This document shows, one piece after another, positions 25,705 to 55,026 of a DNA stretch of 60,261 bases (position 1 is its first letter; each line of letters opens with the position of its first letter). The position numbers were made by a program, and so were the translations under genes. The stretch is from a virus. Where the stretch lies: positions 1 to 60,261 of IMG/VR virus record IMGVR_UViG_3300032220_000952; one strand, written 5' to 3'. The notes beneath the pieces were generated by a model that was given only the letters and a program-made list of their open reading frames with translations, was not told where the DNA came from and did no database searches.

Positions 25705-27946
<2,242 letters not shown>

Positions 27947-35186: not shown

Positions 35187-35630
35187 TTATACCTTTCTTA
35201 TTCCTTTATGATTATCTATTTTATCAAGTATTTCATTTAACAAGCTCATCTTTATGTATCCAGCCATAGATGCGTTTTTAAGTGCGCTTATTAATTGAAA
35301 CACCATAAATGGAACAACGATTACTTCACTCAGCCACCCCGTACCATTAAATCCTTTTTCAACTATTAATATTGTGGATAGTATCATTATCCAAACAAAT
35401 GTATTTCTTAACACACTTAGTGCTTTATGTGTTTTAAATCCCTCTCTTTTTGAACCGGCGATTATTCCAAATATACCATCTAAAAACATTACACCAATTA
35501 CTGCGGTGTATTGGTCTTGATTGTTCATATATAGATTAAGAAAATAACTGCATATAAAAGCACATAAGCCTGATATGGATGTTATTGTTAATATCAACGG
35601 GTTGGTGAGTATTTGTAATTTACTTGTCAT
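35187..35630 (-). CDS. Phage holin-family protein
   Basis: This 147-residue protein has four hydrophobic spans (about 12-34, 41-57, 71-90, 98-116) and a K-R-E-G-F-K-T-H-K loop. The central F-L-D-G-I-F-G-I-I-A-G-S matches the phage holin family with a D-x-x-x-G-x-x-x-A core. It should make the inner-membrane hole for the endolysin encoded just upstream in the transcript. The lysis set is endolysin, two coiled-coil membrane proteins and this holin. Confidence 0.75.
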   Translation of the reverse strand: MTSKLQILTNPLILTITSISGLCAFICSYFLNLYMNNQDQYTAVIGVMFLDGIFGIIAGSKREGFKTHKALSVLRNTFVWIMILSTILIVEKGFNGTGWLSEVIVVPFMVFQLISALKNASMAGYIKMSLLNEILDKIDNHKGIRKV

Positions 35631-36224: not shown

Positions 36225-36824
36225 TTATTTAAGTAATGCGTAATATTCTTTAAAGTGTTTGATACGGTCAGGTAAACCAATTGTACCACCATTTACTCTT
36301 TTAGTAATTGCGGTTACATCAGCATCAGTTGCGCCCTTATCTGCGATAGTATTCAAGCCATTGCTAGACCAAAACCAAGCAGCTGATAATAATGGATACT
36401 TTGTTGCTACTAAATCTGGGTTTGCAGCGATATCTTCGTTGATAGCTTTACCAAAAGCTACATAGTTGTTCTTACCTGTCAATTGAATATAACCTCTACC
36501 TCTAAACTTATATCCATCACCACTTACCTCATCACCATTACCCATTCTACCACCATATACTAAGTTAGCAATCTTCTCAGGCTTTCTTTCATATTGAAGA
36601 GCTTTAGCTTCAGTTGGGAAATATTTTTTGAAAATACCCAACAAACCTTTTGCACCATAGTTCAAATTTTCTTGAATGGCTTTAAAACCAGCACTTTCGT
36701 GTCCACATTGTGCTAAAAAGTGAGATAATCTCAAAGCTGAATCAATTTTGAATGTACTCATCACAGACGGGATTTGTCCAATTACTCCATCAGGAACATG
36801 CCCTTTTAACTTATTAATATCCAT
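36225..36824 (-). CDS. GH19 chitinase-fold endolysin
   Basis: This 199-residue muramidase-type enzyme has the GH19 catalytic helix L-A-Q-C-G-H-E-S-A-G-F (Glu43), then E-N-L-N-Y, and G-D-G-Y-K-F-R-G-R-G-Y-I-Q-L-T-G (near 103). No signal peptide is seen, so it requires the holin. The cleavage target is most likely peptidoglycan. A TATTTATA box lies 27 bases before the ATG (36851-36858), consistent with late expression. Confidence 0.92.
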   Translation of the reverse strand: MDINKLKGHVPDGVIGQIPSVMSTFKIDSALRLSHFLAQCGHESAGFKAIQENLNYGAKGLLGIFKKYFPTEAKALQYERKPEKIANLVYGGRMGNGDEVSGDGYKFRGRGYIQLTGKNNYVAFGKAINEDIAANPDLVATKYPLLSAAWFWSSNGLNTIADKGATDADVTAITKRVNGGTIGLPDRIKHFKEYYALLK

Positions 36825-37280: not shown

Positions 37281-37682
37281 TTATTTTTTAAATGCGGATT
37301 CTAATGATTTTCTTAAAGCAGAACTAAATTCGGTTCTTTCAAATGGTAGGTTTTCATCTTGCAATTGTAAAATCGTAGAAGATACTGATGTTTTGTTTGT
37401 ACCTTCCCCAAAATACTCTTTACCATCCATCGTTATTTTAGTTTTTACAACAGTTTTCTTTTGCTTAAATTCAAATGGACCCACTCTAATACCTTTCGTT
37501 GGTGCTTCAATTGATAAAATTTCTACAGTTACTGGTCTACCATCATCGCAGAGTGCGTATTTATCATTTACCAATTCAGTAACGATTTGTTTTGCACCAT
37601 AAGTTAATTTTGTATCAGGCACTCCATTCATATGAGCAAGTGTGATAACGCTTGAAATAAAGTAACATACTATTGTGTTCAT
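37281..37682 (-). CDS. Exported small protein in the CsgG cluster
   Basis: This 133-residue protein begins M-N-T-I-V-C-Y-F-I-S-S-V-I-T-L-A-H, a likely signal peptide. The mature part is mostly beta (V-T-V-E-I-L-S-I then V-V-K-T-K-I-T-M) with a C-terminal helix (S-A-L-R-K-S-L-E-S). Size (about 130) and position recall CsgE/CsgF-type curli accessory proteins, but no signature is visible, so this is only a hypothesis. Confidence 0.5.
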   Translation of the reverse strand: MNTIVCYFISSVITLAHMNGVPDTKLTYGAKQIVTELVNDKYALCDDGRPVTVEILSIEAPTKGIRVGPFEFKQKKTVVKTKITMDGKEYFGEGTNKTSVSSTILQLQDENLPFERTEFSSALRKSLESAFKK

Positions 37683-37694: not shown

Positions 37695-39410
37695 TTAATA
37701 AGTTAAAGTTGATTGATTTGTAAATCCTGGTGATAATAAATATAGGTTTGTTGTACCTCCACTCAAAGGAGTAAAAGTATAGGTAGATTGAACTCCGGGT
37801 ATTGAATTTCTTAAATCGGTTGTGCTGGTGGTTAAGGTTGTCCATTGTGAGTTTGTGAATAGTAAAGTTCTTTTAGTATAAGCCAATCCATTCACCCATT
37901 TGATTATTGTGTTTATATCACCAATCGTAATATTATTATCACCATTTAATTCATATTTGTGGTAGTGGTAAGACCTGAGTGGTGTTCTTTGTAAGATAAT
38001 ATCATCAACTCCTACAAAATCAATAGAAGATAGATTTGAGGTTGTAGTTGGGATTACTACTTCAATATACCATTCATCTCCGTTTGTTATTGGCTGTGAA
38101 AATGAATATTCCCCTAAAGTGTTTGTTGTAGATGTGGTTTGTTGAGTCCAAGGAGTGAATGTTGGTGCTAATACACCCAACTCCGATGTTTGTAATGAAT
38201 AGGTACTTTGATTGGGTCTTTTCCAAACAACAGCCAATCCATCACCCCCACCATATTCTTGCATCCTTGCTCTAAAAGTGTATTGAGTCCCCGCTACTAA
38301 GTTTATATTCCCATATATCGGCCCACTCATTCCGTGTCCACCATAATAACTTACTACAAAAGTTCCACCAATGAATAAATCACTACCATCATCTGAATTT
38401 ATACCAAATGAGTATGTCCCACTTACAGCAGGTATAAATGTCCCCGTAACTTCAACCGAATAGTAATCTCCATTATTGGGAACAGTTGCACCTGCATTTC
38501 TTATAGTTGTAAATGTATTAAAGTTTAAGCAAGTTGTTGTAGGTAATGTCCCCGACCATCTGAGTTGAGTATTCGTAAAGGTTGTATTGAACAATCTATC
38601 AAATTCAGTTGTGTTCGTTGGATGCGCCACATATTGTGATGTGTTTCCATTTCCAGCATGCGTTGAAAAAACCTTTACATCCATCACATTAGATAATCCA
38701 ATTGTTTGACCCCTCTTAAAAAGTTTTGTAAGTATGTTTGAAACAGGTACATCGTTTTCAGTTCTGATAATGCCTGAGTGTGTAAAAGGTATGAAGGGTG
38801 TAAACAATACAGATGAATTAGAAGTCGGACTCCAATTAACACCATTTCTACCGGTTGTTGTGATTATTTGTGAGTTATTGTTGTTTGATATCCCTTGAAG
38901 AGATGCACCAGAAGAACACCCCGGATGTGTACTGACATTTATTTGTATTGTATTTGTTGTTTCTGATAATACGATTTGAAAATCCGTAAAAAGTGTGGTG
39001 CTGGAATTACAGCTATAATAACCTATATGATAACTTACAACAAATTTTCGGTTTGGAGATGAACCAATAGTTTGGTATCTTACAAAGTAACCAGAGATTG
39101 GAAATAAATCCATAGCATTGGCATGAATACCATTACTTACTACACTATTAGGCGAACCACCAACAATATCACCACCTGCATTTGTAAAAGATATCCATCC
39201 GTTAGAACATATGTTGACGGTTGTAAAATTTGTTCCCCAATAACTGAATGTAAAACCTATTGGTAAATTAGATATAGTTTGGTCATCCCCTAAAGTTAAA
39301 GCAGTCCCAGCAGTTGATTCGTATGAGTAGGTGGGTGTTGATTGAGTATAACTCATTTGCCCAAATACCGAAAATGGTAGTAATAGTAATAATATCAACT
39401 TTTTCATCAT
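37695..39410 (-). CDS. Exported PA14-domain protein with dockerin-like repeat
   Basis: This 571-residue protein begins with a Bacteroidota signal peptide (M-M-K-K-L-I-L-L-L-L-L-P-F-S-V-F-G-Q). Residues about 310-405 form a PA14-type domain (T-G-T-F-I-P-A-V-S-G-T-Y-S-F, then S-D-D-G-S-D-L-F-I-G-G and A-G-T-Q-Y-T-F-R-A-R), usually carbohydrate-binding. Residues 487-508 are dockerin-like (N-G-D-N-N-I-T-I-G-D-I-N). The first 250 residues are beta-rich. The start overlaps the preceding gene as ATGA. It could be an adhesin or glycan-binding surface protein. Confidence 0.8.
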   Translation of the reverse strand: MMKKLILLLLLPFSVFGQMSYTQSTPTYSYESTAGTALTLGDDQTISNLPIGFTFSYWGTNFTTVNICSNGWISFTNAGGDIVGGSPNSVVSNGIHANAMDLFPISGYFVRYQTIGSSPNRKFVVSYHIGYYSCNSSTTLFTDFQIVLSETTNTIQINVSTHPGCSSGASLQGISNNNNSQIITTTGRNGVNWSPTSNSSVLFTPFIPFTHSGIIRTENDVPVSNILTKLFKRGQTIGLSNVMDVKVFSTHAGNGNTSQYVAHPTNTTEFDRLFNTTFTNTQLRWSGTLPTTTCLNFNTFTTIRNAGATVPNNGDYYSVEVTGTFIPAVSGTYSFGINSDDGSDLFIGGTFVVSYYGGHGMSGPIYGNINLVAGTQYTFRARMQEYGGGDGLAVVWKRPNQSTYSLQTSELGVLAPTFTPWTQQTTSTTNTLGEYSFSQPITNGDEWYIEVVIPTTTSNLSSIDFVGVDDIILQRTPLRSYHYHKYELNGDNNITIGDINTIIKWVNGLAYTKRTLLFTNSQWTTLTTSTTDLRNSIPGVQSTYTFTPLSGGTTNLYLLSPGFTNQSTLTY

Positions 39411-40630
39411 AACATCAATTTAGTTCCTGTTAATACCTGCCAATTTAAGAATGTTTGATTCAATTGATAAACGCCTGAAAAACTTATAGTCCATTTAAAC
39501 TTATCAGTTACTTTCAAATCGGTATTCACCATTGGTATGAATAAAAATCCACTCTTATACCATTGCCCTGCATAGAAATAAATATAGGGAGAATACACAG
39601 CTAATCCAAGAAAATTAACACCAATTGATTTTCCACCTTTAAAGTTTGTAAATCCCCCACCAATCAAAGACCAATTTCTAAAAGTATTTTTACTAATCTC
39701 ACCCAATGTAAAGGTTGTTCCTCCCATAAGTGTTATCTTATTTATTTTTTGGGCATTGAGTAGGGAAGCAGTTAAAAACCAATCTTCTTTAAAGTTACTC
39801 ATATACGATGTAGAAAATATACCCATATACTCTTTATACTTTAAAGAACCATACCCCGATACATTTAATATGTTTTGTCCAGTTTGATAGTTTATGTTTA
39901 TACCCTTAATAAAGGTTTGTGAGGTATTGACATGAGTTAGAGATGTATTGAATCTGAAATTATCACTACCCTTTTTTGTAATATCTGAATCGTTTCTTAT
40001 TATTACAATATCCCCCGTTGCTATTAAAGCACCATTTGATACTTTGGATGATGATTTACTCTTGCCACCTCCACCACCTCCTCCACCATCACCACTATTT
40101 TCACTTTCACCACCACTTGCCGTTTGTTGGTTTTGTTCTCCCACTACACCACCCTCACTACCTTCAGTTGAGGAACTGCTGTTATTGTTGTTATTATTGC
40201 TTCCACCATCACTTCTCGGTGCGGGTGGGGGTGTGGGTATGCTTCCAACAGAACTGCCGATAGAACTCGCCATAGATACTACTGATGTTAGGTTAGCAAC
40301 TCCTCCCGCAGTTACACTACCTATAAAGTTAGAAACATTATTTGATGCTTCCGCTCCTTCGGCTGCGCAAGGGTTTGAGCCGGGAGGTAAAGCATCTCTG
40401 ATAGATTGTACCCATTGCTCATACGCCCCACCACTCAATTCAGCATAGGTAAATATGCGGTATTGTCCCGCATAAAACATTGTTACTTCAGATGATTGTG
40501 TTTGTAATTGAATTGATTCAGTTCTACCATTACATGGGTTGATATAAGAATAGGTGAAACTCTGAGCGTGTACACTCAAAATTCCACCTATAATTAAGAT
40601 AGTAGTAAGTAGTAGTTTTTTACCAACCAT
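39407..40630 (-). CDS. Exported Gly/Ser-rich protein with C-terminal beta-barrel-like domain
   Basis: The ATG at 40630 is preferred over TTG. The 407-residue product has a signal peptide ending V-H-A-Q, a beta N-terminus, then a low-complexity linker (about 135-200: Asn, Ser, Glu, Gly runs) and a C-terminal domain with alternating strands (I-N-Y-Q-T-G-Q-N-I-L-N-V-S) ending in L-T-G-T-K-L-M-L. The end resembles an outer membrane beta-barrel with a hydrophobic C-terminal strand. It overlaps the CsgG-like gene by 11 bases, so the two may form a unit. Confidence 0.7.
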   Translation of the reverse strand: MVGKKLLLTTILIIGGILSVHAQSFTYSYINPCNGRTESIQLQTQSSEVTMFYAGQYRIFTYAELSGGAYEQWVQSIRDALPPGSNPCAAEGAEASNNVSNFIGSVTAGGVANLTSVVSMASSIGSSVGSIPTPPPAPRSDGGSNNNNNNSSSSTEGSEGGVVGEQNQQTASGGESENSGDGGGGGGGGKSKSSSKVSNGALIATGDIVIIRNDSDITKKGSDNFRFNTSLTHVNTSQTFIKGININYQTGQNILNVSGYGSLKYKEYMGIFSTSYMSNFKEDWFLTASLLNAQKINKITLMGGTTFTLGEISKNTFRNWSLIGGGFTNFKGGKSIGVNFLGLAVYSPYIYFYAGQWYKSGFLFIPMVNTDLKVTDKFKWTISFSGVYQLNQTFLNWQVLTGTKLML

Positions 40631-41315
40631 TTTGCTCAAGACGCTTTACGAGGTTCATTGTCGCAACCTCCAAAGCCTTCTGAGTAGCAATACCAACGGT
40701 TGATTGGTCAAATCCCATTGTAGGGTTTTTAAAGTAACCCTCACCAAATTGTGTAGATTGTCCTTGACCTGAAGCAACTATAAATTGTGAGTTTTCTACA
40801 TTTACTAAACGAATTTGGATACCCATAATGGTTGTATTCGTTTTCTTTAATTTACCCTTATCATAGTTTTCTGCGTATGAAACTGAAAAATCGTAGATTT
40901 CAGCATAAACTATGTATTTAGGTAAACGAATACCCTGCATTTTAAGTTTTGTTTTACCATCATCTAAACCATCAATCTTCTTTTCCCATGCATCCAACAT
41001 TTGGTTTACAACGGCATCTTTTTCTTCAGTAAATTCAAAACGATTAGTATATAATAGGTTTTCTATAATACGATTAGATACACCTAAGCCAAGTCTTTTT
41101 TCTCTCAATTCAGGAAATGTCTCCCAAAGTTCTTTGTTTACATTTAATTTTGAAAGTTGAAGCGTTTGTTTCTTACCTGTGTAGGTAGAGATAGATTCCA
41201 ATGTTCTATCTGTCTTTTCAAAATCCGCTTGATATTGTGTAGTTGATATAGATGATTTACACCCACTCAATAACAACAAGCAACTTACGATTGGAATTAA
41301 AACTATTTCTCTCAT
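40620..41315 (-). CDS. CsgG-like outer membrane lipoprotein
   Basis: This 231-residue protein has a lipobox L-S-G-C (Cys19) and the CsgG pattern: I-I-E-N-L-L-Y-T-N-R-F-E-F-T-E, a beta sheet (Y-A-E-I-Y-D-F-S-V-S and I-Q-I-R-L-V-N-V), V-G-I-A-T-Q-K-A-L-E-V-A, then a final helix L-V-K-R-L. CsgG forms the outer membrane secretion pore for curli. Related genes occur in marine T4-like phages, where the role is unclear. It is followed by two exported proteins and sits near lysis genes. It starts with an ATGA overlap at 41312-41315. Confidence 0.75.
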   Translation of the reverse strand: MREIVLIPIVSCLLLLSGCKSSISTTQYQADFEKTDRTLESISTYTGKKQTLQLSKLNVNKELWETFPELREKRLGLGVSNRIIENLLYTNRFEFTEEKDAVVNQMLDAWEKKIDGLDDGKTKLKMQGIRLPKYIVYAEIYDFSVSYAENYDKGKLKKTNTTIMGIQIRLVNVENSQFIVASGQGQSTQFGEGYFKNPTMGFDQSTVGIATQKALEVATMNLVKRLEQNGW

Positions 41316-41710
41316 TCTTCACCTTCCTGTTCTGCTTGTTTAGCTCTCAATCTCTTCATTCTCTCAGCAGGTGTTTCTTTCTTTTCTTCAACAGGTGCTG
41401 CTGCAGCAGGAGCTGCGGTTTGAGCTGGTGCTACTTCTCTGATAGTTTCCTTTTCTCTGATTACAGTAGTTCCACCACCACTACCTGCGGATGAATTACT
41501 TTGGTTGTTGTTCTCCAAATTAAGATTGATTACTGGTGCTGCGGCAGGTGCGGCCTGTTCCGTTTTGGTTTCTTCACTATCGTTTCCACCACCACCAAAT
41601 AAGGTTGTGGAAATCCACACACCACCACCCGTAACTACAGTGGCGAGTGTTCCAACGATGGTCTTTTTTAATCCACCCCAAGTACCATCATTTTCTGTCT
41701 CTTCTGCCAT
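41312..41710 (-). CDS. Membrane protein with Ala/Pro-rich low-complexity tail
   Basis: This 132-residue protein has one hydrophobic segment (T-I-V-G-T-L-A-T-V-V-T-G-G-G-V-W-I), then a Gly/Asn/Ala/Pro/Glu-rich tail and a basic, coiled-coil C-terminus (E-R-M-K-R-L-R-A-K-Q-A-E). The tail is unlikely to fold. It overlaps the CsgG-like gene at its stop (ATGA). It may anchor or organise the exported cluster. Confidence 0.6.
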   Translation of the reverse strand: MAEETENDGTWGGLKKTIVGTLATVVTGGGVWISTTLFGGGGNDSEETKTEQAAPAAAPVINLNLENNNQSNSSAGSGGGTTVIREKETIREVAPAQTAAPAAAAPVEEKKETPAERMKRLRAKQAEQEGEE

Positions 41711-41723: not shown

Positions 41724-43625
41724 TTAGAATTTAAATATTTTGTAAACTTTTTGCTTTTCGTTAGTGGTTAATCTTACAAAGTAAAAACCTGTCTTTAAAT
41801 CACTAACATTGATTTTTTTCGTAACTACTTCATTTTGATTTACGAACTCTTTTTCTGAGTAAAAGTTTTTACCCATATAATCGTAGATTTCGTATGTTAA
41901 ATATCCCCAATTGGTTTGGAAATAATCTATGTTTAAGTTGTCTTGAACTGGATTTGGATATATTCTAAACCCATTTACTAATTCGTTTACAAGTTCTCTT
42001 GCTCTTCTACCATTAACCACAGTCGCATCTACAGGTGAAGGGATGATATTCAAATCTTCTGCTTTTTCATTTCCCGCTGCTTTGTTGGTTATTTTAATAG
42101 GTGATTGTTCCCAGTTTTGATTTAAGATTTCAAATTGGAAATTAAACATTTGAGTTGGGTTGGTGATAAGTGATGGAGACATTTTAGATTCGTGTCCACC
42201 CCAAGTTATCTCACCAGGTTTTGCTGAAATGAATGCGTTCCAAGCACTTGCTTCAGGCCCTACATTAACATTTGTAAACCTAAAAATGGTTGGGTCATAC
42301 TTTAAAGATAATTGTGCTGCACCTACTTTGTTTCCATGTGTGATAAAGGTAACAGCAACATTTACTGAATTATCATCTGAAATAGTTAATTTAGGTATTC
42401 TAAATTGGACTGAATCTTCAATGTTTTGATAGATTGTTCCTTCATCCAATACATAAGATGTTCCGCTTGTTGGGTTGTTTACTCTTTGAATTTGGAATGA
42501 TAAGTTGTTTAATCCAGTATTTGTTACATCCCCTAAAACATACCCTCTATAACTTAAGGAACTTAATCCATTCAATGGAACATCAATGTTAGTTGTACCT
42601 ATGATATTGGTTTGGAATACATCTGGGTTAGCCATAATCGTAGCGTATTCTCCTGCGGTATAGTACCTAACATTGTATTCATTTGCTACTACAGGAGACC
42701 AAGTAGTTCTACCCGTTGCTAAACGATTAAATATTAAATAAGCATCGGATACGGATAATGTGTTATTGCGGTTTACATCACCTTGTTGGAACTCGTATGC
42801 TTGGGCAGTATCAGCGTAAATACTCATATCGGATAATCTATAAGCATCGGTAATGTTGATAGCTGAATTATCAGATAGGGTATCTAAATTTGATACTAAC
42901 TTAACATTGTAGAAAGATGTATCGTATGGGATTTTAATTCCTGCTAAACCAGCAGCGTCTGTTACAAATCTTTCACCACGACTATAAGTTTGTGTGGTTT
43001 TCAGTTTGTAATCAAATGCGAATGGCATATCCGGCGCAGGTGTTCCATCTACATTTAATAAGGTTACGGGGAACACCAAAGTATCCATTTGGAATCTACC
43101 TCCGTAGCTGTAAACACCTAAAGCGTTATCAACACCAGCGGTTGTGGTTGCTATGTTTGTGTAGGCAGGGGTAGATTGAACTTCTAATGAATCAACGGAA
43201 GAAGGATTGAACCCAACTGCGTGTGGGAGTAAAACTTCAAATACAGCACCATCAGGCCAATCAAATACTGCTGATGTCCCAGTATAGATTGCCGTTGCGT
43301 TTACCCAACCAGGTTGACTATAGTAAGAACCATACTTTGTATTAATTCCAGTTGCGGTTGGTCCCCATTTTACAATAGGTTGTTTGAACGATGTGGTGGG
43401 GTAGAAAAATCTAACCTGAAAACCAGCGTAGTTTGTAGCAGTTGGATTGTGATAGTGTAAATATACTACAGTAGTGTCCTCTAATACACTACCCAATGTA
43501 AACACCGTATCAATCAAAAAGTGTGGTGAGTTTGAGTTTGGCGATACTAATACTTCCGTTCTTCCGTTTTGAGCAAATACTCCAAATGGTAAAAGTAACG
43601 CAAATAATAAAATAAGTTTTTTCAT
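41724..43625 (-). CDS. T9SS-secreted protein with dockerin-like repeats and cohesin-like domain
   Basis: This 633-residue exported protein begins M-K-K-L-I-L-L-F-A-L-L-L-P-F-G-V-F-A-Q (signal peptide). Two dockerin-like repeats lie at 252-269 and 282-305 (S-A-I-N-I-T-D-A-Y, then R-N-N-T-L-S-V-S-D-A-Y), and a cohesin-like domain at about 410-505 (V-G-A-A-Q-L-S-L-K-Y-D-P, then G-E-I-T-W-G-G). The end (about 555-633) has F-R-I-Y-P-N-P-V, then L-K-T-G-F-Y-F-V-R-L, the type A sorting domain of the type IX secretion system. The host T9SS would export and may anchor it. Confidence 0.85.
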   Translation of the reverse strand: MKKLILLFALLLPFGVFAQNGRTEVLVSPNSNSPHFLIDTVFTLGSVLEDTTVVYLHYHNPTATNYAGFQVRFFYPTTSFKQPIVKWGPTATGINTKYGSYYSQPGWVNATAIYTGTSAVFDWPDGAVFEVLLPHAVGFNPSSVDSLEVQSTPAYTNIATTTAGVDNALGVYSYGGRFQMDTLVFPVTLLNVDGTPAPDMPFAFDYKLKTTQTYSRGERFVTDAAGLAGIKIPYDTSFYNVKLVSNLDTLSDNSAINITDAYRLSDMSIYADTAQAYEFQQGDVNRNNTLSVSDAYLIFNRLATGRTTWSPVVANEYNVRYYTAGEYATIMANPDVFQTNIIGTTNIDVPLNGLSSLSYRGYVLGDVTNTGLNNLSFQIQRVNNPTSGTSYVLDEGTIYQNIEDSVQFRIPKLTISDDNSVNVAVTFITHGNKVGAAQLSLKYDPTIFRFTNVNVGPEASAWNAFISAKPGEITWGGHESKMSPSLITNPTQMFNFQFEILNQNWEQSPIKITNKAAGNEKAEDLNIIPSPVDATVVNGRRARELVNELVNGFRIYPNPVQDNLNIDYFQTNWGYLTYEIYDYMGKNFYSEKEFVNQNEVVTKKINVSDLKTGFYFVRLTTNEKQKVYKIFKF

Positions 43626-43645: not shown

Positions 43646-43990
43646 CTATTGTTCATTTGATGATAGCGAAACCCCATCTTCTTCGTCCATTTTCTGAACA
43701 AGCATCTTATCTCTATCTTCGTTAGAGAACCAAAAGTCTACTACTTTGTTTAGATTACCCACAAAAGCACCTAAAAGGATAAGTAGTAACTCTTTCCACG
43801 CTTCTTCAATACTTGCTTTGAACATTACTGCTAAAACAATACCAAATACGATAAAAAAGAATGTAAATAAAATTAGTAATGTAATTTTCCAACGATTTGA
43901 CTGCATCGTTTGGAGCATGAAATTGAATCTTTGGTCATTTTCAACTCTTTGAAAATCTTCGTTGTATAGTAATTTGTTAATAAGTCCCAT
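43646..43990 (-). CDS. Holin-like two-span membrane protein
   Basis: This 114-residue protein has an N-terminal charged region, two transmembrane segments (about 35-57 and 64-83) and a short loop. The end has L-G-A-F-V-G-N-L-N-K-V-V-D-F-W. That layout resembles small holin-like proteins of marine phages. It is followed by the T9SS cargo gene and preceded by another holin-like gene. Confidence 0.6.
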   Translation of the reverse strand: MGLINKLLYNEDFQRVENDQRFNFMLQTMQSNRWKITLLILFTFFFIVFGIVLAVMFKASIEEAWKELLLILLGAFVGNLNKVVDFWFSNEDRDKMLVQKMDEEDGVSLSSNEQ

Positions 43991-43992
43991 AA

Positions 43993-44244
43993 TTATTCCT
44001 CACCTTTGTCGCAGTTACAATCTTTCTTTTTGAAAATCTTATCTGCGGATGCTAAACCTAAAGCTCCAAAAGCAAGTGCAGCAACTGCATTTACTAATGA
44101 ATCAGCTGGGGCGATGTGGGATTCGGTGAATTGATTGTGGTACATTGTAACACATAGTGTTAATGCTGATAAAATACCCACAAATCGTTTGGATGAAAAT
44201 CCTCCTTTTTCGTCTTGGAAGATTTCAGTAAAAAATCTCTTCAT
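43993..44244 (-). CDS. Holin-like small membrane protein
   Basis: This 83-residue protein has two hydrophobic helices (about 20-35 and 48-70) and ends with a Cys-rich charged tail (D-C-N-C-D-K-G-E-E). The N-terminus has E-K-G-G-F-S-S-K-R-F-V-G-I-L-S-A-L-T-L, a segment that I recall from small Bacteroidota phage membrane proteins. A TATTTATA box (44306-44313) lies 62 bases before the ATG. Confidence 0.55.
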   Translation of the reverse strand: MKRFFTEIFQDEKGGFSSKRFVGILSALTLCVTMYHNQFTESHIAPADSLVNAVAALAFGALGLASADKIFKKKDCNCDKGEE

Positions 44245-44526: not shown

Positions 44527-45714
44527 TTAGGCATAATTATTCACAATTTTTATTAAATCATTTTCGTAATGTCTTACTGAACTAATATGGAATTTAAATA
44601 TATCCATTTCATAATAACCAACTGATATTTCATTCTCTGTTAAAATCTCCGATAATCTTTCAATAAATATAAAGTTATTTTGGTTTAACATCGTACCATC
44701 AAACTCAACAACAATATCATTTTCGCAAATAGGGTCGTGGTGGTTAATTAAACGAATTCTTCTACTTAAATCAAACTTTGTATTTTTTTGTTCTTCATCA
44801 ATGTAATTGGTGGTTATCATACCATATCCATCTTCTATGTATATTTTATCACACCAAGGTTCTAATGTTCTCAACAACTCTAAATTACAATTGTTTACTA
44901 CTAAACCAACACCGTATTTGTGGGGGATGATTGGATACTGATACTCATCGTTTTTTATCCAACTACCCCATTTACGCAGATAGTTTCGGGCAGCAGATTG
45001 TTTCATATTATGAAAATCTACATCTTTGGTAACTTGCTCTATTCCATCCTGAAACTGACCTCCTCTACAAGTTAGATGATACACAAAAGCTGTCCATATT
45101 TGTGTAATATCATATCCATTTAAAATAAATCTATTAAAAATATCACTATCTTCGTGATAAGAGTGAAAAGTTTCATCGTGCATCCCAATTTTAGTAATAT
45201 CTTCTTTATAACAAGCCCATGGAGCAAATATCCCTTTGGTTGTTATGTTTTGATTTTTCGTAATTAACTCCCTCACAAATTCATCAAATTCTTCTTTTTT
45301 AAAATCTTCAGGATAAAGTCCAAAGTTTTTAACTATTTTTTCTTTTCCTTCTGGGTGTAATGGTGGTTCAATTCTAGTTCCGGCTACAATACTACCCCGT
45401 TTCAAAAACTTTAAAATATTTTCATCAAACCCTCTAGCCACATACATATCAGCGTGAAACATACAAACTATTTCAGTAGTTGCCATTTCAATACACTTAT
45501 TATAAGCATGGGCAATTCCTTGTGGTTTATTTAAATCATTTTTAAGGTATTGAATTCCGTTTTCAATTAACCATGTTTCTGTCCCATCCTCATCCATATC
45601 AACATAGACAATAATATGGTGTTCAATAGCACTATTTTCTTTAATAGATTTAATACTATTTTTTAAGTATCTAAGATTGTTTTTGCTTGGGATACAAAAA
45701 GTTATTTTATTCAT
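44527..45714 (-). CDS. GT2-type glycosyltransferase
   Basis: This 395-residue protein starts M-N-K-I-T-F-C-I-P-S-K-N-N (ATG at 45714; the longer frame starts with TTG). It has the GT-A fold: N-N-L-R-Y-L-K-N-S-I-K-S-I, V-Y-V-D-M-D, a D-x-D-like H-A-D-M-Y, and a catalytic loop F-H-S-Y-H-E-D-S-D-I. The C-terminal half is of unknown type. It would add a sugar in the glycan pathway of this region. Confidence 0.8.
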   Translation of the reverse strand: MNKITFCIPSKNNLRYLKNSIKSIKENSAIEHHIIVYVDMDEDGTETWLIENGIQYLKNDLNKPQGIAHAYNKCIEMATTEIVCMFHADMYVARGFDENILKFLKRGSIVAGTRIEPPLHPEGKEKIVKNFGLYPEDFKKEEFDEFVRELITKNQNITTKGIFAPWACYKEDITKIGMHDETFHSYHEDSDIFNRFILNGYDITQIWTAFVYHLTCRGGQFQDGIEQVTKDVDFHNMKQSAARNYLRKWGSWIKNDEYQYPIIPHKYGVGLVVNNCNLELLRTLEPWCDKIYIEDGYGMITTNYIDEEQKNTKFDLSRRIRLINHHDPICENDIVVEFDGTMLNQNNFIFIERLSEILTENEISVGYYEMDIFKFHISSVRHYENDLIKIVNNYA

Positions 45715-45715
45715 A

Positions 45716-46273
45716 TCAAACCCAATGTGTAAATTTAACTCCAATTTTTTCAATTTCTTTTATCAATTCAATTGTACTGTTTTTATCTTCCCCATTTTCT
45801 AAAATAGGATACATATCTTTGTGTGAATGAAACTCTACAAATAAATCATTTAGATATTGAATTGAATTATCTTCTATCATTTTTCTCAAAACAGCATATT
45901 CCGCACCTTCTATATCCATTTTAACAACTATAAAATCATCTTTAGAAAAATTTTGTATTATAAATTCGCTAAAATCCAAACACATTACATCAATAGAGCC
46001 ATAGTAATTTTTTCCTATATGGTTTTTATATATAGATGATGAATCGGTGTTTGGGTATGCAATATTAAACGTAATTATTTCATTATTAGTATATATTGCT
46101 TTATTAATGTAATGAATATTATTGTGAATATTTTGTTCGTTGTGCTCTTGCCATAAATAAGTGTTAGGTTCAAATGAGTATATTTCCCAACTACTATCCA
46201 TATTATACATTTGTATGAATTTCATTAAACCCTCTGCCAAATGCGTCCCGCAATCTAAAAATATTTTTTTCAT
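45716..46273 (-). CDS. FkbM-family methyltransferase
   Basis: This 185-residue SAM-dependent methyltransferase has the motif F-L-D-C-G-T-H near residue 5, F-E-P-N-T near 34, and V-V-K-M-D-I-E-G-A-E-Y near 118, the FkbM pattern. It likely O-methylates a sugar. It lacks the N-terminal helices of typical FkbM proteins, so it is a short member. Two other FkbM genes lie nearby. Confidence 0.8.
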   Translation of the reverse strand: MKKIFLDCGTHLAEGLMKFIQMYNMDSSWEIYSFEPNTYLWQEHNEQNIHNNIHYINKAIYTNNEIITFNIAYPNTDSSSIYKNHIGKNYYGSIDVMCLDFSEFIIQNFSKDDFIVVKMDIEGAEYAVLRKMIEDNSIQYLNDLFVEFHSHKDMYPILENGEDKNSTIELIKEIEKIGVKFTHWV

Positions 46274-46285
46274 ACTATCTAATTA

Positions 46286-47119
46286 TTATTTTGGTAAACA
46301 CAATAAGTTATGACCAGATTTCGGTGATATATCAGTATGTGTTTTAATTTTATTTCCTAAATTGTTAATATCAAATACACCATTACGTTCATCATAGCAC
46401 TCATAGTTTAAATCGGCTATAACATATAATAGTTCATCTATTTCTTTAAAATTTAAACCATCGTATAATTCTGTTATTAATACAGGTTTACATTCAGTTA
46501 TAATAGGTTTAAGGGTTGGAATTATATTTTTATCATGTCCTTCAGCATCTATTTTGATTAAACTAATATTATTTATTAAATTATTGTGGTGTTCTTTTAA
46601 AAAATCGGCTGTATTTACAGCAAAAACATCCAATGGAATAGTATGGCCGGTGACCCCGATACCAGCATTTAAAGATTCCGCGTATCCGCCATTACAAAAA
46701 CCATAGTCGGAATAATGAAAGGTTAAGTTTGTATTTTTTGTAGAACATGCTAAATTGTAAGGAATAATATTTTGATGTATGGTTGAATTTAATTCCAACA
46801 CTTCATAAGCAACTGGATTTGGTTCGAATGAAATAACTTTATTTGCAAATAGTGAAAAAGCTATGGACATATTTCCTACTTGGGCACCAATATCTATTAC
46901 ATTTGAATTTGGTCTAATTAACTTCTTTATATTATTTAATATGGTATTGGTAAATAATTCGCGTTGCTCCCAATTTCCTTGATATGGGTGATTCCATTTA
47001 TAATATTTAAAATTATATTCAATAATATTGTAATTAACAATACTGCTTGAATAGTGAAAGTTATTTTTTTTTAAAAATTGTATAACTTCTTCTCTGTATT
47101 CTTTAATTTCTTTTAACAT
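46286..47119 (-). CDS. FkbM-family methyltransferase
   Basis: This 277-residue protein has N-V-I-D-I-G-A-Q-V-G-N-M-S near residue 75, F-E-P-N-P-V-A near 100, and L-I-K-I-D-A-E-G-H-D-K near 192, the FkbM signature. It likely O-methylates a glycan. It overlaps the preceding gene by 7 bases. Confidence 0.85.
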   Translation of the reverse strand: MLKEIKEYREEVIQFLKKNNFHYSSSIVNYNIIEYNFKYYKWNHPYQGNWEQRELFTNTILNNIKKLIRPNSNVIDIGAQVGNMSIAFSLFANKVISFEPNPVAYEVLELNSTIHQNIIPYNLACSTKNTNLTFHYSDYGFCNGGYAESLNAGIGVTGHTIPLDVFAVNTADFLKEHHNNLINNISLIKIDAEGHDKNIIPTLKPIITECKPVLITELYDGLNFKEIDELLYVIADLNYECYDERNGVFDINNLGNKIKTHTDISPKSGHNLLCLPK

Positions 47120-47997
47120 AAAATTTTATTTTTAAATTTTTCTAATTCATTTAAAAGATTTGCTTCAGCGTGTCTTTTAAACTCCAATTGCTTATCAATT
47201 AAGTGTAAATATTTTTGATATGGATTATGGCGGTATTTAAAATTTTCTATAACTATTACTTCTTCTAGCACAAATTGTTGTATATTGTAATTACAGTTCT
47301 TCATTATATCACAACACAACATAACATATGTATCATCCACGCCATATGGTCCAAATGAATCAGGAATATCTGTTAATTTTAATAATTTAGTGGATAGCAA
47401 ATTAAACCAACCACCACCGAATTTAAAATAATTTATACTTTTTAAATTTACATCACCACTAAAAGAATAGTTGACAATTTTAAAAGGATCAACATTCCTA
47501 TATCTTTCTAAATTTGGTGATAAATTGATAAAATTTTTGTTTACTAAAGAATCCCAACTATTATCCCACATTTTCATTATTTCCGGTGATATAACGTAAT
47601 AATCAATATTAATTTTTTTAGAAGATTCTATCAAATAAAAAAAATGCTCGGGTTTAAATATAACATCACAATCTAAATAAAGAATATTATCAGAGGTGGT
47701 TGAACGTACAGCTTCTCTTCTTTTATCATCACACCCCATACATTTATTATCATCATCAATCACAAACTGAATTTCCGCCCAATCCCACAATTTTTTTATT
47801 TGATTAAATTTATCGATGAAAAATTGTTTAGGTATTTGTGATTTTTTCCAGTCAACTAAATTTAAATTTAAAGTGGTATCTATTATTATTTTATCTTCCG
47901 GATTGAGATAATAACTACCAATTTTAAATTGTAATGATTGCCATTCAAACCAGTCTATTTCATGTGGTAGTAGATGAACTACTATATGCGTTTTCAT
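47113..47997 (-). CDS. GT-A-like glycosyltransferase
   Basis: This 294-residue protein has Y-L-D-C-D-V-I-F near residue 107, a D-x-D metal motif, and F-S-G-D-V and G-G-G-W-F-N-L near 178-200. The overall pattern fits a GT-A-fold transferase of unassigned family. It overlaps its neighbours by 4-7 bases. Confidence 0.65.
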   Translation of the reverse strand: MKTHIVVHLLPHEIDWFEWQSLQFKIGSYYLNPEDKIIIDTTLNLNLVDWKKSQIPKQFFIDKFNQIKKLWDWAEIQFVIDDDNKCMGCDDKRREAVRSTTSDNILYLDCDVIFKPEHFFYLIESSKKINIDYYVISPEIMKMWDNSWDSLVNKNFINLSPNLERYRNVDPFKIVNYSFSGDVNLKSINYFKFGGGWFNLLSTKLLKLTDIPDSFGPYGVDDTYVMLCCDIMKNCNYNIQQFVLEEVIVIENFKYRHNPYQKYLHLIDKQLEFKRHAEANLLNELEKFKNKILC

Positions 47998-48845
47998 TTT
48001 AGTAAATGTTTAAATTTATTTTTGTTTATTTTTATATATTCGGGCAAGTTTACATTATCTATCCAATATTTAAATTCATTTCTACCCAGAATATCTGTAT
48101 TATTTTTTAAACTGTTAGAAATGCTGTTTTTAATATAATCATTATTATATTCTTGATGGCCAAAGTTTTCTATTTTGGTTTTAATTCTATCAACACCACC
48201 TTGATAAGAAAAATGCCAACCAGCATTATCAATATAGGTGTATGTAGTTTTATTTGGAGTATCTAAGTGATTTACACTTGCATTTTTAATATTTTTAAAT
48301 TTACTATAATAAGTTCCGGCCCATTCTTCACTACTACGCATGTTAAGATACATAGAAAAAACCAATTGTTTACACTTATATATTTGATTATCATCTATAA
48401 CATAACTAATATTTGGATTCCAAATTTCATCCAAATCCGATATATAGCACACGTCATCATCGGCAATTCCAGCATTAATTAAAGCATCTTTCATACATTC
48501 TTTTTGATAAAATTCACGCATCCAATGAAACTGCCCATATGGTACATTTGTAGTAGTTAAACAATTCAAATATTTTTGTTTATCAATAGTTGTTGATGCA
48601 TTCAAAAATCTGAATTGAAGCTCCTCATACGATTTTGGGGTATCATCAACTATATGATGTATTATTTTGTGTGCATATTTTTTAAATAATTCTTTATTTT
48701 CATCATAAAATAATTTTTTATTTAATCCAGAAAAAGAAATGTTTGATTCAACAATTACAAATTTATCTACAACATTTTCAAGTGTATTTAATCTAATTTC
48801 TAATAATTCTAATTCATTAAAGAATATAAAGCAATCGTATATCAT
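47994..48845 (-). CDS. GT17-family glycosyltransferase
   Basis: This 283-residue protein carries Y-D-C-F-I-F-F-N-E-L-E-L-L-E-I-R-L near the start, K-F-V-I-V-E-S-N, F-Y-D-E-N-K-E-L-F and Y-I-S-D-L-D-E-I, a hallmark of GT17 (beta-1,4-mannosyl-glycoprotein GlcNAc-transferase family). The substrate in phage or host is unknown. It overlaps the next gene at ATGA (48842-48845). Confidence 0.88.
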   Translation of the reverse strand: MIYDCFIFFNELELLEIRLNTLENVVDKFVIVESNISFSGLNKKLFYDENKELFKKYAHKIIHHIVDDTPKSYEELQFRFLNASTTIDKQKYLNCLTTTNVPYGQFHWMREFYQKECMKDALINAGIADDDVCYISDLDEIWNPNISYVIDDNQIYKCKQLVFSMYLNMRSSEEWAGTYYSKFKNIKNASVNHLDTPNKTTYTYIDNAGWHFSYQGGVDRIKTKIENFGHQEYNNDYIKNSISNSLKNNTDILGRNEFKYWIDNVNLPEYIKINKNKFKHLLK

Positions 48846-49744
48846 TTTAAGTAAATTTTTGTTTGATTAATAAATAAATTTAATTCTCTTTTACATTCAT
48901 CGTATGTTTGTAAATTTCCAAATCTATCCATATAAATAAAATCTTTATATAAATTACAACCCATAGACCAATACCCGTTAGATATATTATGTCTTGCCCA
49001 ATATTTTGGAGCAATAATTAATTTTGCTAACTCATTTGTTAAAGCTGGGAAATATCCAAAGCTAGAGTTGGATAAAATTAACCACTTTGCGTTTTTTATT
49101 ATTGAATAATCCTCCCCAACACCCATGTGAAAAACATTATCGGATAACTCAGGTAATAAATTTTTTACACAATTTGGATTTTCGGTAATTACAGCAAAAG
49201 TCATTTGGGGATTAATACTTAGCATATGATTAATAGCATTAACCCAATATGTTCTAGATAAAAATAATGTATCATCACCCTCATAGTCCCGTATATTTAA
49301 AATACACACATCATCATTTGAAAAATCATATATATCATATTCGGGCTTAACACATAACCATTTTTTAATATCATTTTTATAATCATAAAAATAATCTTCC
49401 GATTGTAATAATCCATCTATTTTGCAATTATCATGTAACGATAACACATTATAATCAGTCAACCGTATATCACACCCTATAGTTGCATCGTGCTGACTAG
49501 TATTTAATTTGATTCTACATTCTTTTTCTTTGTAGTAATTAGTAATTGCGCTAATATCAACAGGCAATCCTAAATCCAAATCCATAAAATACACTCCTTT
49601 ATCGTTGTATCTTCTATCTCCAAAGTTTTCTAAACCAGTGAAACCAAATTCATACCCATTGCGTAGTGCAATAGCTCTTGTTGTAACATATACAGCAAGT
49701 TGGTTTCCAAAACCCTGTCCATAATAAAATTCGGTTGTTATCAT
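48842..49744 (-). CDS. GT11-like fucosyltransferase
   Basis: This 300-residue protein begins with Y-Y-G-Q-G-F-G-N-Q-L-A-V-Y, the GxGNQ element of alpha-1,2-fucosyltransferases, and has A-K-W-L-I-L-S-N-S-S-F-G-Y-F near residue 220, where typical members show S-N-S-S-F-S-W-W. The Trp-Trp pair is lost. The family is GT11 or a relative. It overlaps the GT17 gene by 4 bases. Confidence 0.65.
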   Translation of the reverse strand: MITTEFYYGQGFGNQLAVYVTTRAIALRNGYEFGFTGLENFGDRRYNDKGVYFMDLDLGLPVDISAITNYYKEKECRIKLNTSQHDATIGCDIRLTDYNVLSLHDNCKIDGLLQSEDYFYDYKNDIKKWLCVKPEYDIYDFSNDDVCILNIRDYEGDDTLFLSRTYWVNAINHMLSINPQMTFAVITENPNCVKNLLPELSDNVFHMGVGEDYSIIKNAKWLILSNSSFGYFPALTNELAKLIIAPKYWARHNISNGYWSMGCNLYKDFIYMDRFGNLQTYDECKRELNLFINQTKIYLK

Positions 49745-49762
49745 TAGATATAAATTTTATAG

Positions 49763-51115
49763 TTAATTGGATATTAAGTTATTATAATTATGATTTTTTC
49801 CATGAAAGCCAAATGTTAATATACCATTATTTTCCGGTATTGGTGTTTCAAAAGAAAATTTTGATGCAACATCAATTGGTGCAAATTTACAACCATTTGC
49901 TTCATAAATGTGCTTGTTATGACAACAAAAAAATCCATCTTCGTTGTAAAACCCAAAGTAAGACTTCCACTCAAGATCCAATTCACTAGCTAATCTAAGT
50001 AGTTTTTTACTTCGCAGTGAAAAACCACCATTTCCAACTCGTTGTAAGTTACCATAACTATCTTTAAATGAAAAATCATCTTCAGGTATTGGCCACGGAG
50101 CTCCTATATAATCATATTCTAAAAACAAACCATCCCATTGTTCTGCATTAACAACAAACCCATCCTCTTGTATAATAAGGGCAAATTCAGTATTAATATA
50201 TTTATGTAATTCATATACAATAAATTTACTGTATTCATCGGTATTTAGTATGGGGTTAATTTTAATAACATCTATATTATCTAACACACATTCTTCACTT
50301 GTTAATAATAAAACATTTTTAAATTCAATATTTTTTACAGAATATTGTAACGCTTTTATAGCACGTTGCACATTAACAGATGTAACACATACTAGTGTAA
50401 CATTTTCTAAATACTTTTTGTATTTTTTAGTAATGTAGTGCACTTCTTTTTCTATAATTTTATCATTAACTATTGTATTTGTTGTTCTGTTAGGATGTTC
50501 TCTATTTACAACAGTAACATAGTTACAAATACTTGGTAGTCCAAATTTATCATACAAACGTTTATAATAGTCAACATCAACCAACCATATTAGATTTTCA
50601 TCAAACTCCAAAACATTTTTATTTTTAAACATTAAAACACTGGGTGAACTAATAGTATTTTCACCATAATGAATATTATCGTGATATTTAGGATATACTG
50701 TGTTGTAAAAATTTATTCCATCATTGGAATGACAGCAAGCTGTCACCATCCAATGGTTGTAATTTCCTACAAAATGATATATTTGATAGTATAAACTGTT
50801 TTCATCTACCAAAAAATCATCTTGACAAAGTATTTTTATAACATCACCCGAAGCCTTTGATATTACATTGTTTAAATTGGGCGCAAGTGTTCCGTATTTT
50901 TTTTGATAAAAAAAGTGTTTTATATTTAATTTATTAGACCATTCATAACACAAATTTTTTATTTCATCATTTTTACTATGATCTGAAATAATAATTTCAA
51001 AGTTAGTGTAAGTTTGTTTGGCTAATTTTTGAAAAGAAAAATCTAAATATTTTTTTCCGTTTCCACCCATTTCATATGTTGGTATGCATACACTAATTAA
51101 AGGTAAATTATTCAT
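49763..51115 (-). CDS. Two-domain GT2 / DUF5672 glycosyltransferase
   Basis: The 450-residue protein has an N-terminal GT2 domain (P-L-I-S-V-C-I-P-T-Y-E-M, then S-D-H-S-K-N-D and C-Q-D-D-F-L-V, about 1-225). The C-terminal part (about 238-440) matches DUF5672: L-V-C-V-T-S-V-N-V-Q-R-A, I-I-Q-E-D-G-F-V-V-N, Y-D-Y-I-G-A-P-W and V-G-N-G-G-F-S-L-R-S. A fusion that adds two sugars in turn is likely. Confidence 0.85.
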   Translation of the reverse strand: MNNLPLISVCIPTYEMGGNGKKYLDFSFQKLAKQTYTNFEIIISDHSKNDEIKNLCYEWSNKLNIKHFFYQKKYGTLAPNLNNVISKASGDVIKILCQDDFLVDENSLYYQIYHFVGNYNHWMVTACCHSNDGINFYNTVYPKYHDNIHYGENTISSPSVLMFKNKNVLEFDENLIWLVDVDYYKRLYDKFGLPSICNYVTVVNREHPNRTTNTIVNDKIIEKEVHYITKKYKKYLENVTLVCVTSVNVQRAIKALQYSVKNIEFKNVLLLTSEECVLDNIDVIKINPILNTDEYSKFIVYELHKYINTEFALIIQEDGFVVNAEQWDGLFLEYDYIGAPWPIPEDDFSFKDSYGNLQRVGNGGFSLRSKKLLRLASELDLEWKSYFGFYNEDGFFCCHNKHIYEANGCKFAPIDVASKFSFETPIPENNGILTFGFHGKNHNYNNLISN

Positions 51116-51116
51116 T

Positions 51117-51794
51117 TTAAAAAACTTTTTTTAATTTGCTTATATTCATTGTAATGTTATTTGGCGCATTAATTGGTGCGTTGATGGGTTTTGTATCAAA
51201 TTCTTTTTTTGTAAGACTATGCCAAGTTTTTATTTCAGTACCTACATTATAAATACCAAAACAATTTTTATAAATTAACTTTATAATTAACTCTGATATT
51301 TTATTTACATAATCACCATTTGTAAATTGATTATCCCATGCGTTTTTATATGGAAATGGGTATGGTTTATGAGATGTTCTAACTATTAAATAGTTTTTAC
51401 ATTTTAATTGTATGTGGGCATCACCAAGTAATTTTGTGTAACCATACCAGGTTTCTAAATGAACAGGAACATCTTCCTCTGATGCTTCTGTTTTAGAATT
51501 TGCATAAATATAATCAGTAGATATATGAGCAAGTTTTTTTCCTGTCTCGTTACAAAAATTTACTAATGTATCAACAAACTCATAATTTACTTTCCAATGC
51601 AATTCTTTATTATTTGAATATGTGTCTGTATTTGCTATGCAATTAATGATAACGTCATATTCAGAAAGTTTAAACATCCATTGGTTAAAGTCAAAAATAT
51701 CTATTCCATCTTTTTTTCTTGAAATATAATCCCAATTAGTTTGTTTAACCAATTCAGAACCTAATAAACCATCACCAAGAATTACTATTTTCAT
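51117..51794 (-). CDS. RmlD-like NAD(P)-dependent sugar reductase
   Basis: This 225-residue short-chain dehydrogenase-like enzyme has V-I-L-G-D-G-L-L-G-S-E-L (G-x-x-G-x-x-G variant), I-S-T-D-Y-I-Y-A near 93 and Y-G-Y-T-K-L-L-G near 117 (Y-x-x-x-K active pair). It resembles dTDP-4-dehydrorhamnose reductase but is shorter. It likely completes a deoxy-sugar path. It overlaps the 3-dehydrase gene as ATGA (51791-51794). Confidence 0.8.
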   Translation of the reverse strand: MKIVILGDGLLGSELVKQTNWDYISRKKDGIDIFDFNQWMFKLSEYDVIINCIANTDTYSNNKELHWKVNYEFVDTLVNFCNETGKKLAHISTDYIYANSKTEASEEDVPVHLETWYGYTKLLGDAHIQLKCKNYLIVRTSHKPYPFPYKNAWDNQFTNGDYVNKISELIIKLIYKNCFGIYNVGTEIKTWHSLTKKEFDTKPINAPINAPNNITMNISKLKKVF

Positions 51795-53077
51795 TTAAAA
51801 TTTTTTACAACGGATTCAATATATTCAAAAACTACATCAGTATAGTGTGGTGCGGCCCCAATAAAAAATACTTTATCTAAAACTTTATTAGCTTCAGGAT
51901 AGTTTGATGAATTGTCTAAAAATGAATATCCCGGATGTAACAAAATATTACCTGCAAAATAATTTCTCGTCTGAATTTTATTTTTTTCCAAATGTTCAAC
52001 TAATTTATGCTTTAACCCTTCTTCTTCACAAACAAATGGAGTACCAAACCAACTTACATCCGCTTTATCCAAAGATTTAATACCCCTAATTCCTTTTATA
52101 TTTGAGGTAAAAATATTCTCAATTGTTTCTTTTGATTTTTTTCTATTAGTTTCAATCTCATCAAATTTATCCAATTGAACAGAACCTATAGCCCCCTGTA
52201 AATCCAATGGTTTTAAATTATAGCCCATATTTGAAAAAACATATTTATGGTCTATTATACCATCATATGAATCTAACCAATTATTAAATCTTTTACCACA
52301 AGTACCACAACTTAACAAATTAGCTGAACCCACGCAGTAGCAATCTCTACCCCACCATGCTATACTTGTTAATAATTTTTTTAATTCTTCTTCATTAGTC
52401 CCAATCAACCCACCTTCTCCAGTAGAAATATGGTGTGCTGGGTAGAATGAATTTGAGTATGCTATATAATACTCATTTAAATATTTGCCACCCCATTTTG
52501 AACCCAAACTATCACAGTTATCTCCAATTAGTTTTAAATTGTATTTTTCACAAATTTCAATAAGTTTATCAAAATCTGGCGGATTGCCTAAAACGGGGGA
52601 AACAAATATTGCTTTAGTTTTATTTGTTATTTTTGATTCTATTTGATTTAAATCAAAATTCAAAGTATCCCATTCAATATCTACAAATACAGGCTTAAGT
52701 CTATTTTGATATAAAACAGATATTGTTGTGGCAAAACCAACAGGTGAAACAATAACTTCATCATCATCTTCCCAACCAAAATATTTTTTTAAAGCGGTTA
52801 TCATTACTAAATTTGCAGAGCTACCTGAGTTTACCATTTGGTTGAATTTTGAATTAAATTTTTTACCAAATTTTCTTTCAAATTTCCAAACTTCTTCTCC
52901 AGCAGTAATCCATTTACCATTTAAAAATGTATTAACAGCAGCTTCTATTTCTTTATTATCCCAATATGGGCCTGAGTAGTAAATGGGTGTAGTTCCCGCT
53001 TTGAATTCTTTAGAATTGTATATGTAGGGGGCTACATGATTTCCAATTAAAGATTTAATTTCATTTTGTAAAATCAT
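51791..53077 (-). CDS. rfbH: RfbH-type sugar 3-dehydrase (PMP and [2Fe-2S] dependent)
   Basis: This 428-residue DegT/DnrJ/EryC1-family protein has the cofactor-binding S-N-S-F-Y-P-A-H-H-I-S-T-G-E-G-G. His215 replaces the usual Lys, as in E1/RfbH-type CDP-4-keto-6-deoxyglucose 3-dehydrases. Four cysteines (246, 248, 257, 260) in W-G-R-D-C-Y-C and S-C-G-T-C match the E1 [2Fe-2S] cluster. Such enzymes remove the C3 hydroxyl to make 3,6-dideoxyhexoses. The required reductase partner was not seen. Confidence 0.85.
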   Translation of the reverse strand: MILQNEIKSLIGNHVAPYIYNSKEFKAGTTPIYYSGPYWDNKEIEAAVNTFLNGKWITAGEEVWKFERKFGKKFNSKFNQMVNSGSSANLVMITALKKYFGWEDDDEVIVSPVGFATTISVLYQNRLKPVFVDIEWDTLNFDLNQIESKITNKTKAIFVSPVLGNPPDFDKLIEICEKYNLKLIGDNCDSLGSKWGGKYLNEYYIAYSNSFYPAHHISTGEGGLIGTNEEELKKLLTSIAWWGRDCYCVGSANLLSCGTCGKRFNNWLDSYDGIIDHKYVFSNMGYNLKPLDLQGAIGSVQLDKFDEIETNRKKSKETIENIFTSNIKGIRGIKSLDKADVSWFGTPFVCEEEGLKHKLVEHLEKNKIQTRNYFAGNILLHPGYSFLDNSSNYPEANKVLDKVFFIGAAPHYTDVVFEYIESVVKNFK

Positions 53078-53133
53078 ATTTTAATTTTTGTATTTTATTT
53101 TTTAAATTTATATAAAAACTATTTTATATAGAG

Positions 53134-54021: not shown

Positions 54022-54022
54022 A

Positions 54023-55003: not shown

Positions 55004-55026
55004 TTTTATTTATTTTTATTTATTAT

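Follow-up and report, generated by a model that had tools for sequence, protein, structure and literature searches.

What a phage does with a CsgG-superfamily gene is an open question, and the locus at 40620-41315 of the virus record IMGVR_UViG_3300032220_000952 raises it again. The record is 60,261 bases long, was analysed as a whole (the window) and belongs to a virus of Bacteroidota. An earlier note on its sequence had proposed a CsgG-like pore lipoprotein at this locus, overlapping an exported protein. We found that the phage gene at 40620-41315 is genuine and conserved, and that its product is a member of the CsgG superfamily, not a standard curli pore. The gene is tied to cargo of the type IX secretion system (T9SS) and to swappable lectins, not to lysis or curlin. 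This tie persists at protein identities as low as about 37%, and also holds in the cultured phage immuto. The cassette covers about 37.3-43.6 kb of the window, more than the earlier note had described, and contains these genes:

37281..37682, minus strand: second small CsgG-like protein (anticodon-binding-like pattern), assigned by hhalign to the CsgG-like family
37695..39410, minus strand: exported sugar-binding-type protein, PA14 domain (49.5 bits, cut-off 24) and a conserved C-terminal dockerin-like module
39407..40630, minus strand: barrel partner, with signal peptide, N-domain (residues 25-80), helix (100-127), disordered Gly/Ser/Asn linker and barrel (201-405)
40620..41315, minus strand: CsgG-superfamily lipoprotein with short hairpins, an intact open reading frame (ORF) of 231 residues with lipobox, predicted fold and homologues
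41312..41710, minus strand: small protein, N-terminal hydrophobic transmembrane-like segment (by eye), charged C-terminus, 4-nucleotide overlap with the CsgG-like gene
41724..43625, minus strand: scaffold (T9), with signal peptide (by eye), dockerin-like repeat (by eye), cohesin domain and C-terminal type A T9SS sorting domain

The lipobox that had been read in the 40620-41315 protein is present as LLSGC by eye. Among 39 family members, it was found in 27 by regular expression and in 7 more by eye. With the window protein as a single query, no match to Pfam CsgG (PF03783) passed the cut-off, and searches of PHROGs and of the record gave no CsgG match. The PDB held no credible match by sequence, nor a credible chain by the family profile. 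Because these direct searches gave nothing, membership in the CsgG superfamily rests on the fold and on intermediate sequences. The cellular homologues at loci L064 and L066, 39% and 36% identical to the window protein, reach 28.6 and 28.1 bits and pass the Pfam CsgG cut-off of 20.8. The AlphaFold2 model of the protein has a predicted local distance difference test (pLDDT) score of 63 and a predicted template modelling (pTM) score of 0.57. CsgG was its best Foldseek match (E 1.7e-8) and filled all 18 top rows, and VIA placed eight CsgG entries at Z 12.8-14.2, with the next match at 11.4. PelC (Z 10.6), FlgT and LptE were structural matches below CsgG. In the predicted model, the CsgG match covers nearly the whole mature protein, and membrane-bound CsgG forms are among the matches. 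A search of BFVD returned one named CsgG (E 7e-9), with many ERF/Rad52-like proteins ranked lower. Comparing the profile of the family with that of 13 CsgG sequences gave a weak result (probability 0.4, rising to 2.6 when the two cellular homologues were included), the alignments being shallow. The CsgG-type motifs of the earlier note are therefore borne out for fold and superfamily, by structure and transitive homology, and not by any Pfam, PDB sequence or profile match.

We inspected the two hairpins by which CsgG builds its pore, reading their lengths off a joint alignment of the 39 family members (37 phage, 2 cellular), the 13 CsgG sequences and four short non-curli paralogues. The family medians for hairpins 1 and 2 are 28 (28-29) and 26 (26-30) residues, against 34 and 38 in CsgG. 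The phage family thus falls 6 and 12 residues below CsgG length, and resembles the four paralogues, whose medians are 28 and 28. In the model, hairpin 1 is extended (134-152/155-172), and hairpin 2 has one strand only, its return strand being absent in a region of low confidence. The hairpin lengths and the single-chain model thus largely give the result that the earlier note had named as refuting its reading, hairpin 1 being the part that still agrees with a CsgG-type pore. Since the hairpins are short and the modelled hairpin 2 has one strand only, the alignment and the model make it unlikely that the CsgG-like protein forms the barrel by itself. The barrel appears to be supplied by the overlapping next gene instead.

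The overlap between these two genes is real and spans 11 nucleotides (ATGGTTGGTAA), as the barrel gene starts at the ATG at 40630 (MVGKK...), the start common to relatives, and not at the TTG at 40639 as first assumed. Its product has the low-complexity linker and the barrel-like end that had been noticed, the former rich in Gly, Ser and Asn and the latter modelled as 12 antiparallel strands closing an outer-membrane-type barrel. The model (pLDDT 55 overall; mostly about 57-78 in the barrel, lower at 351-360 and 392-407) matches solved barrels and resembles autotransporter translocators (NalP Z 17.9, EspP 17.4), with FapF lower at 12.5. Of the earlier proposal of an outer membrane pore, a CsgG-superfamily lipoprotein with a barrel partner, probably acting in the outer membrane, is thus supported, and a CsgG-type pore made by the lipoprotein is not.

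Three likenesses of the barrel protein were tried and dropped. Its N-domain resembled CsgF (probability 85) due to the signal peptides, and the mature parts gave a probability of 1. Homology to the C-terminal extension of flavobacterial CsgG is unsupported (probability 1.2), as is homology to the outer-membrane-protein-like (OMP-like) proteins near L064 and L066, though the layout is alike by eye. The flavobacterial CsgG of L078, L083 and L087 have 457-495 residues with a C-terminal extension that is barrel-like by eye; E. coli CsgG is without the extension. A barrel-like small protein of 139 residues (by eye) directly follows the CsgG-like gene at L065 (8655-9074) and L172 (8051-8470).

The scaffold carries the link to host secretion. 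Its sorting domain scores 53.8 bits for Por_Secre_tail (cut-off 27) and 39.6 bits for TIGR04183 (cut-off 23), and its cohesin domain (PF00963) 28.3 bits (cut-off 24.1). Of the scaffolds scanned, 32/32 have the T9SS type A tail and 31/32 the cohesin, and the domains predict that the scaffold is exported by the host T9SS. A regular expression for a dockerin-like motif matched 45/48 distinct scaffolds and 20/42 distinct adhesins, and missed those closest to the window's own. The adhesin slot is occupied in the window by the PA14 protein, whose gene overlaps the barrel gene by 4 nucleotides. In relatives (n=26), the slot contains Lectin_C (13), PA14 (9) and Dockerin_1 (5), and ten slot proteins scanned singly all had a lectin, PA14 or LamG domain. 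Loci L003 and L016 differ by a swap of the sugar-binding half, a C-type lectin against PA14. The C-terminal 139 residues of the slot are common at 94%, and the rest of the cassette is nearly identical (CsgG-like and second CsgG-like protein 100%, barrel 99%, scaffold 95%). Because only the sugar-binding half differs between these loci, the slot C-terminus looks like a fixed docking part and the sugar-binding part like an interchangeable head.

The gene set recurs across viruses. CsgG-like relatives were found at 62 loci in IMG/VR. The CsgG-like and barrel genes are conserved and co-occur, and are therefore not chance ORFs. An alignment-based pattern search (at least 569 of at least 600 pattern matches) kept 78 loci, and removal of 23 with short flanks left 55 for synteny. 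Hidden Markov models (HMMs) detected the second CsgG-like protein in 54 of these, the small protein encoded upstream in 52, the scaffold in 51, the barrel in 49 and the C-terminal module of the adhesin in 47. Two small membrane proteins were present in 40 and 21, and a same-strand GH19 endolysin within the fetched flank in 23. The adhesin-module and scaffold HMMs overlap, some ORFs matching both, which makes 47 and 51 upper bounds. As the loci are not independent, they were clustered by identity of the CsgG-like protein, giving 23 clusters at 90% and 5 at 70%. Of the 23 clusters, 21 contain the scaffold, 19 the barrel (by HMM), 22 the second CsgG-like protein, 18 the adhesin module and 7 the endolysin. 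An ORF of at least 250 residues with the N-domain motif lies within 6 kb after the CsgG-like gene in 52/55 loci, and the barrel start is -31 to +6 nucleotides from the CsgG-like stop in 51/55. The loci lacking the standard barrel follow-on are L161, L162 and L172; in L172, a small barrel-like ORF comes directly after the CsgG-like gene, and about 2.2 kb beyond it is an ORF with an N-domain/linker/barrel-like layout (by eye). The second CsgG-like protein matches the CsgG-like family with probability 61 (hhalign, E 8e-5), and its family HMM also matches homologues at 30-34 bits.

Since T9SS cargo and exchangeable sugar-binding proteins accompany the CsgG-like gene almost constantly, we read the cassette as a device that acts at the surface of infected cells. 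Starting from the genes, their domains and order, the sorting signals, the domain swap and the predicted folds, we propose, as an even call, that a ring-plus-barrel in the outer membrane cooperates with the host T9SS, so that infected cells present variable sugar-binding proteins on their surface. The lipoprotein, with most of its pore hairpins lost, would form a periplasmic ring. By analogy to the PelC ring on PelB, a precedent for a ring with a single barrel (PMC12141448; published systems are cited here from excerpts of the papers), this ring may be seated on the dedicated single-chain 12-strand barrel from the overlapping gene. The cohesin scaffold would be exported by host type IX secretion via its C-terminal sorting domain, through PorV, which carries type A C-terminal domains (PMC12618676). 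The lectin/PA14 protein, having no sorting domain, may be exported or retained on the surface via its dockerin-like end, presumably bound by the cohesin, and the ring-barrel complex. The infected cell would thereby acquire phage-chosen sugar-binding proteins, most likely for adhesion, for aggregation ('sibling capture') or for blocking competing phages. A broader version is possible though rather doubtful. In it, a split CsgG (ring and barrel genes) would be an outer-membrane module that large phages, of Bacteroidota as well as of related phyla, plug into the host T9SS, and a cellulosome-like cohesin-dockerin layer with quickly swapped lectins would form an adhesive coat on infected cells. If the display reading is true, the phage exploits the host T9SS via a whole conserved cassette, not a lone cargo gene.

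Several observations weigh against display. The confidence of both models is modest (pLDDT 63 and 55), and PelC is a second-tier fold match, below CsgG. The lipobox, and with it the lipid anchor, is absent from 5/39 family members. No T9SS tail is present among the families listed for the slot proteins (n=26), which leaves their export route unexplained. Dockerin_1 (PF00404) matches just 8/32 scaffolds and 5/26 adhesins, and neither window protein.

The window's long ORFs lie almost all on the minus strand. Around the cassette are the following:

35187-35630: holin
36225-36824: GH19 endolysin
43646-44244: small ORFs with two transmembrane-like segments (by eye)
44527-60049: a long run of glycosyltransferase, aminotransferase and sugar-nucleotide enzyme genes

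These neighbours suggest an outer-membrane lysis device, spanin-like or a gated pore, acting with the holin and endolysin, and a lysis role has been proposed for the CsgGF of phage Melnitz (PMC9004378). The placement between holin-like genes and lysis genes, stressed in the earlier note, is true in the window but not conserved across loci. The same-strand GH19 gene is present in only 23/55 loci and 7/23 clusters (90%), so that the endolysin is a variable neighbour, and the T9SS-tailed cohesin protein and the lectin slot are near-constant. We therefore demoted lysis as the main role and consider it very unlikely; lectin, cohesin and T9SS tail are also needless for it. A true CsgG-type pore is unlikely as well. 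In it, nine copies would span the outer membrane with their hairpins to secrete or import material, the barrel gene being an accessory. In its favour, CsgG, including its membrane-bound forms, gives the best structural match, the modelled hairpin 1 is extended, and CsgG/CsgF systems have been described in pelagiphages and in Melnitz (PMC7029224, PMC9004378, PMC9599517). However, the hairpins have the lengths of non-curli paralogues, the CsgF likeness of the barrel protein is gone once signal peptides are cut, and the 60-kb record, perhaps a fragment, has no Pfam match to CsgA/B, CsgE or CsgF.

The CsgG-like/barrel pair may instead be active by itself in surface exclusion or uptake, with the lectins as unrelated passengers. 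Roles in superinfection and uptake have been suggested for curli genes and T9SS cargo genes of other phages (PMC9599517, PMC7468147), and among near relatives the cassette product with the highest conservation is usually the CsgG-like protein. We regard this as distinctly unlikely, as the adhesin C-terminal module in 47/55 loci and the scaffold in 51/55 (upper figures) argue against passengers, and so does the confinement of the swap to the sugar-binding half of the slot. Receptor-binding proteins often carry variable lectin/PA14 domains, which would fit virion parts, namely receptor-binding lectins and decoration. However, tailed virions are assembled in the cytoplasm, the scaffold, barrel and lectin proteins have signal peptides at their N-termini, where the CsgG-like protein has a lipobox (both by eye), and the scaffold bears a T9SS tail, making virion parts most improbable.

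Compared with known systems, the phage protein shares with curli (type VIII) CsgG (PF03783) the fold, the lipobox in most phage family members and transitive Pfam membership. It differs in its two shortened pore hairpins, its separate barrel gene and the absence of curlin, CsgE and CsgF from the record. Flavobacterial CsgG differs in having a barrel-like C-terminal extension (by eye) instead of the phage's separate barrel gene. The phage curli clusters of pelagiphages and Melnitz also carry a CsgG-superfamily gene in a multi-gene cluster, but with CsgF and, in pelagiphages, curlin repeats, where the cassette described here has T9SS cargo, cohesin, lectins and a 12-strand barrel. The roles proposed for those genes include sibling capture, uptake, exclusion, curli fibres and lysis (PMC7029224, PMC9599517, PMC9004378). 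Phage T9SS cargo has been published for Cryophage (PMC7468147) and for BACON neighbours in crAss-like phages (PMC6949934). The Cryophage proteins have T9SS type A tails and variable content including a PA14 gene, but the excerpted report mentions no CsgG-like/barrel device or curli. In the window, it is the constant cohesin scaffold that has the tail, and the variable PA14/lectin protein is without one. PelB-PelC is comparable in its lipoprotein ring fold, to which the phage protein gives a second-tier match (Z 10.6), and in its separate outer-membrane barrel; it exports a sugar polymer, and is likened here by fold and layout. RemA of Flavobacterium johnsoniae is a lectin adhesin with type A T9SS export (PMC12618676), but joins lectin and sorting tail in one protein, whereas the phage cassette uses two. 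No description of the combined cassette was found in the open-access PubMed Central literature, which does not prove its absence.

Among 50,697 phage records, a related gene was found only in four immuto records (Flavobacterium sp. LMO8; 36.8% identity, E 5e-36), where it is annotated as hypothetical. Immuto differs in having a shorter protein of 363 residues, then a separately annotated cohesin-domain protein. Near relatives are rare in cellular genomes: 84,980 species genomes, scanned with a pattern, gave 4 loci. Two of these, L065 and L067, look phage, with GH19 and small-membrane-protein neighbours; the other two, L064 from Ignavibacteriales and L066 from Cloacimonadota, look cellular. In profile searches, 2 of 197, 2 of 199 and 3 of 124 genomes matched, the seed genome counted each time; the four non-seed matches were weak, and the two scanned in Pfam are CsgG-family. 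In the Cloacimonadota metagenome-assembled genome (MAG), L066 5414-9899 has the gene of a T9SS-tailed protein of 840 residues directly upstream of the CsgG-like gene, and an OMP-like gene of 413 residues. This region is possibly a cellular form of the cassette. The Ignavibacteriales MAG (L064 7977-15413) has a row of a CsgG-like gene, a CsgG-like paralogue, an 825-residue protein, a CHASE2/cyclase-like gene (by eye) and an OMP-like gene; the cyclase-like gene recalls the adenylate cyclase of pelagiphage curli clusters. The T9SS link of the display reading is also backed by the tailed gene at L066 and by the L140-L145 group, in which an OMP gene lies near the CsgG-like gene, matching the PorV/PorQ family in L141 (90.1) and L142 (125.4; cut-off 90):

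L140 6190-7044; L141 6167-7021; L142 5646-6521; L145 6212-7066: OMP near the CsgG-like gene in phage contigs

A ferredoxin-like ORF is also present in L140, L141 and L145 (by eye). As to the rest of the record, the small protein at 41312-41710 has no Pfam match, no tRNA was found in the 60,261 bases, and a promoter and terminator scan was no better than shuffles. From the glycosyltransferase and sugar-nucleotide run, the phage may also remodel surface sugars. A phage-encoded GroEL is present at 25705-27312 (phrog_5725, E 6e-158). A thymidylate synthase of 377 residues (7754-8887) lies beside a homing-endonuclease-like gene (7754-9906 for the two), which may point to an intervening element.

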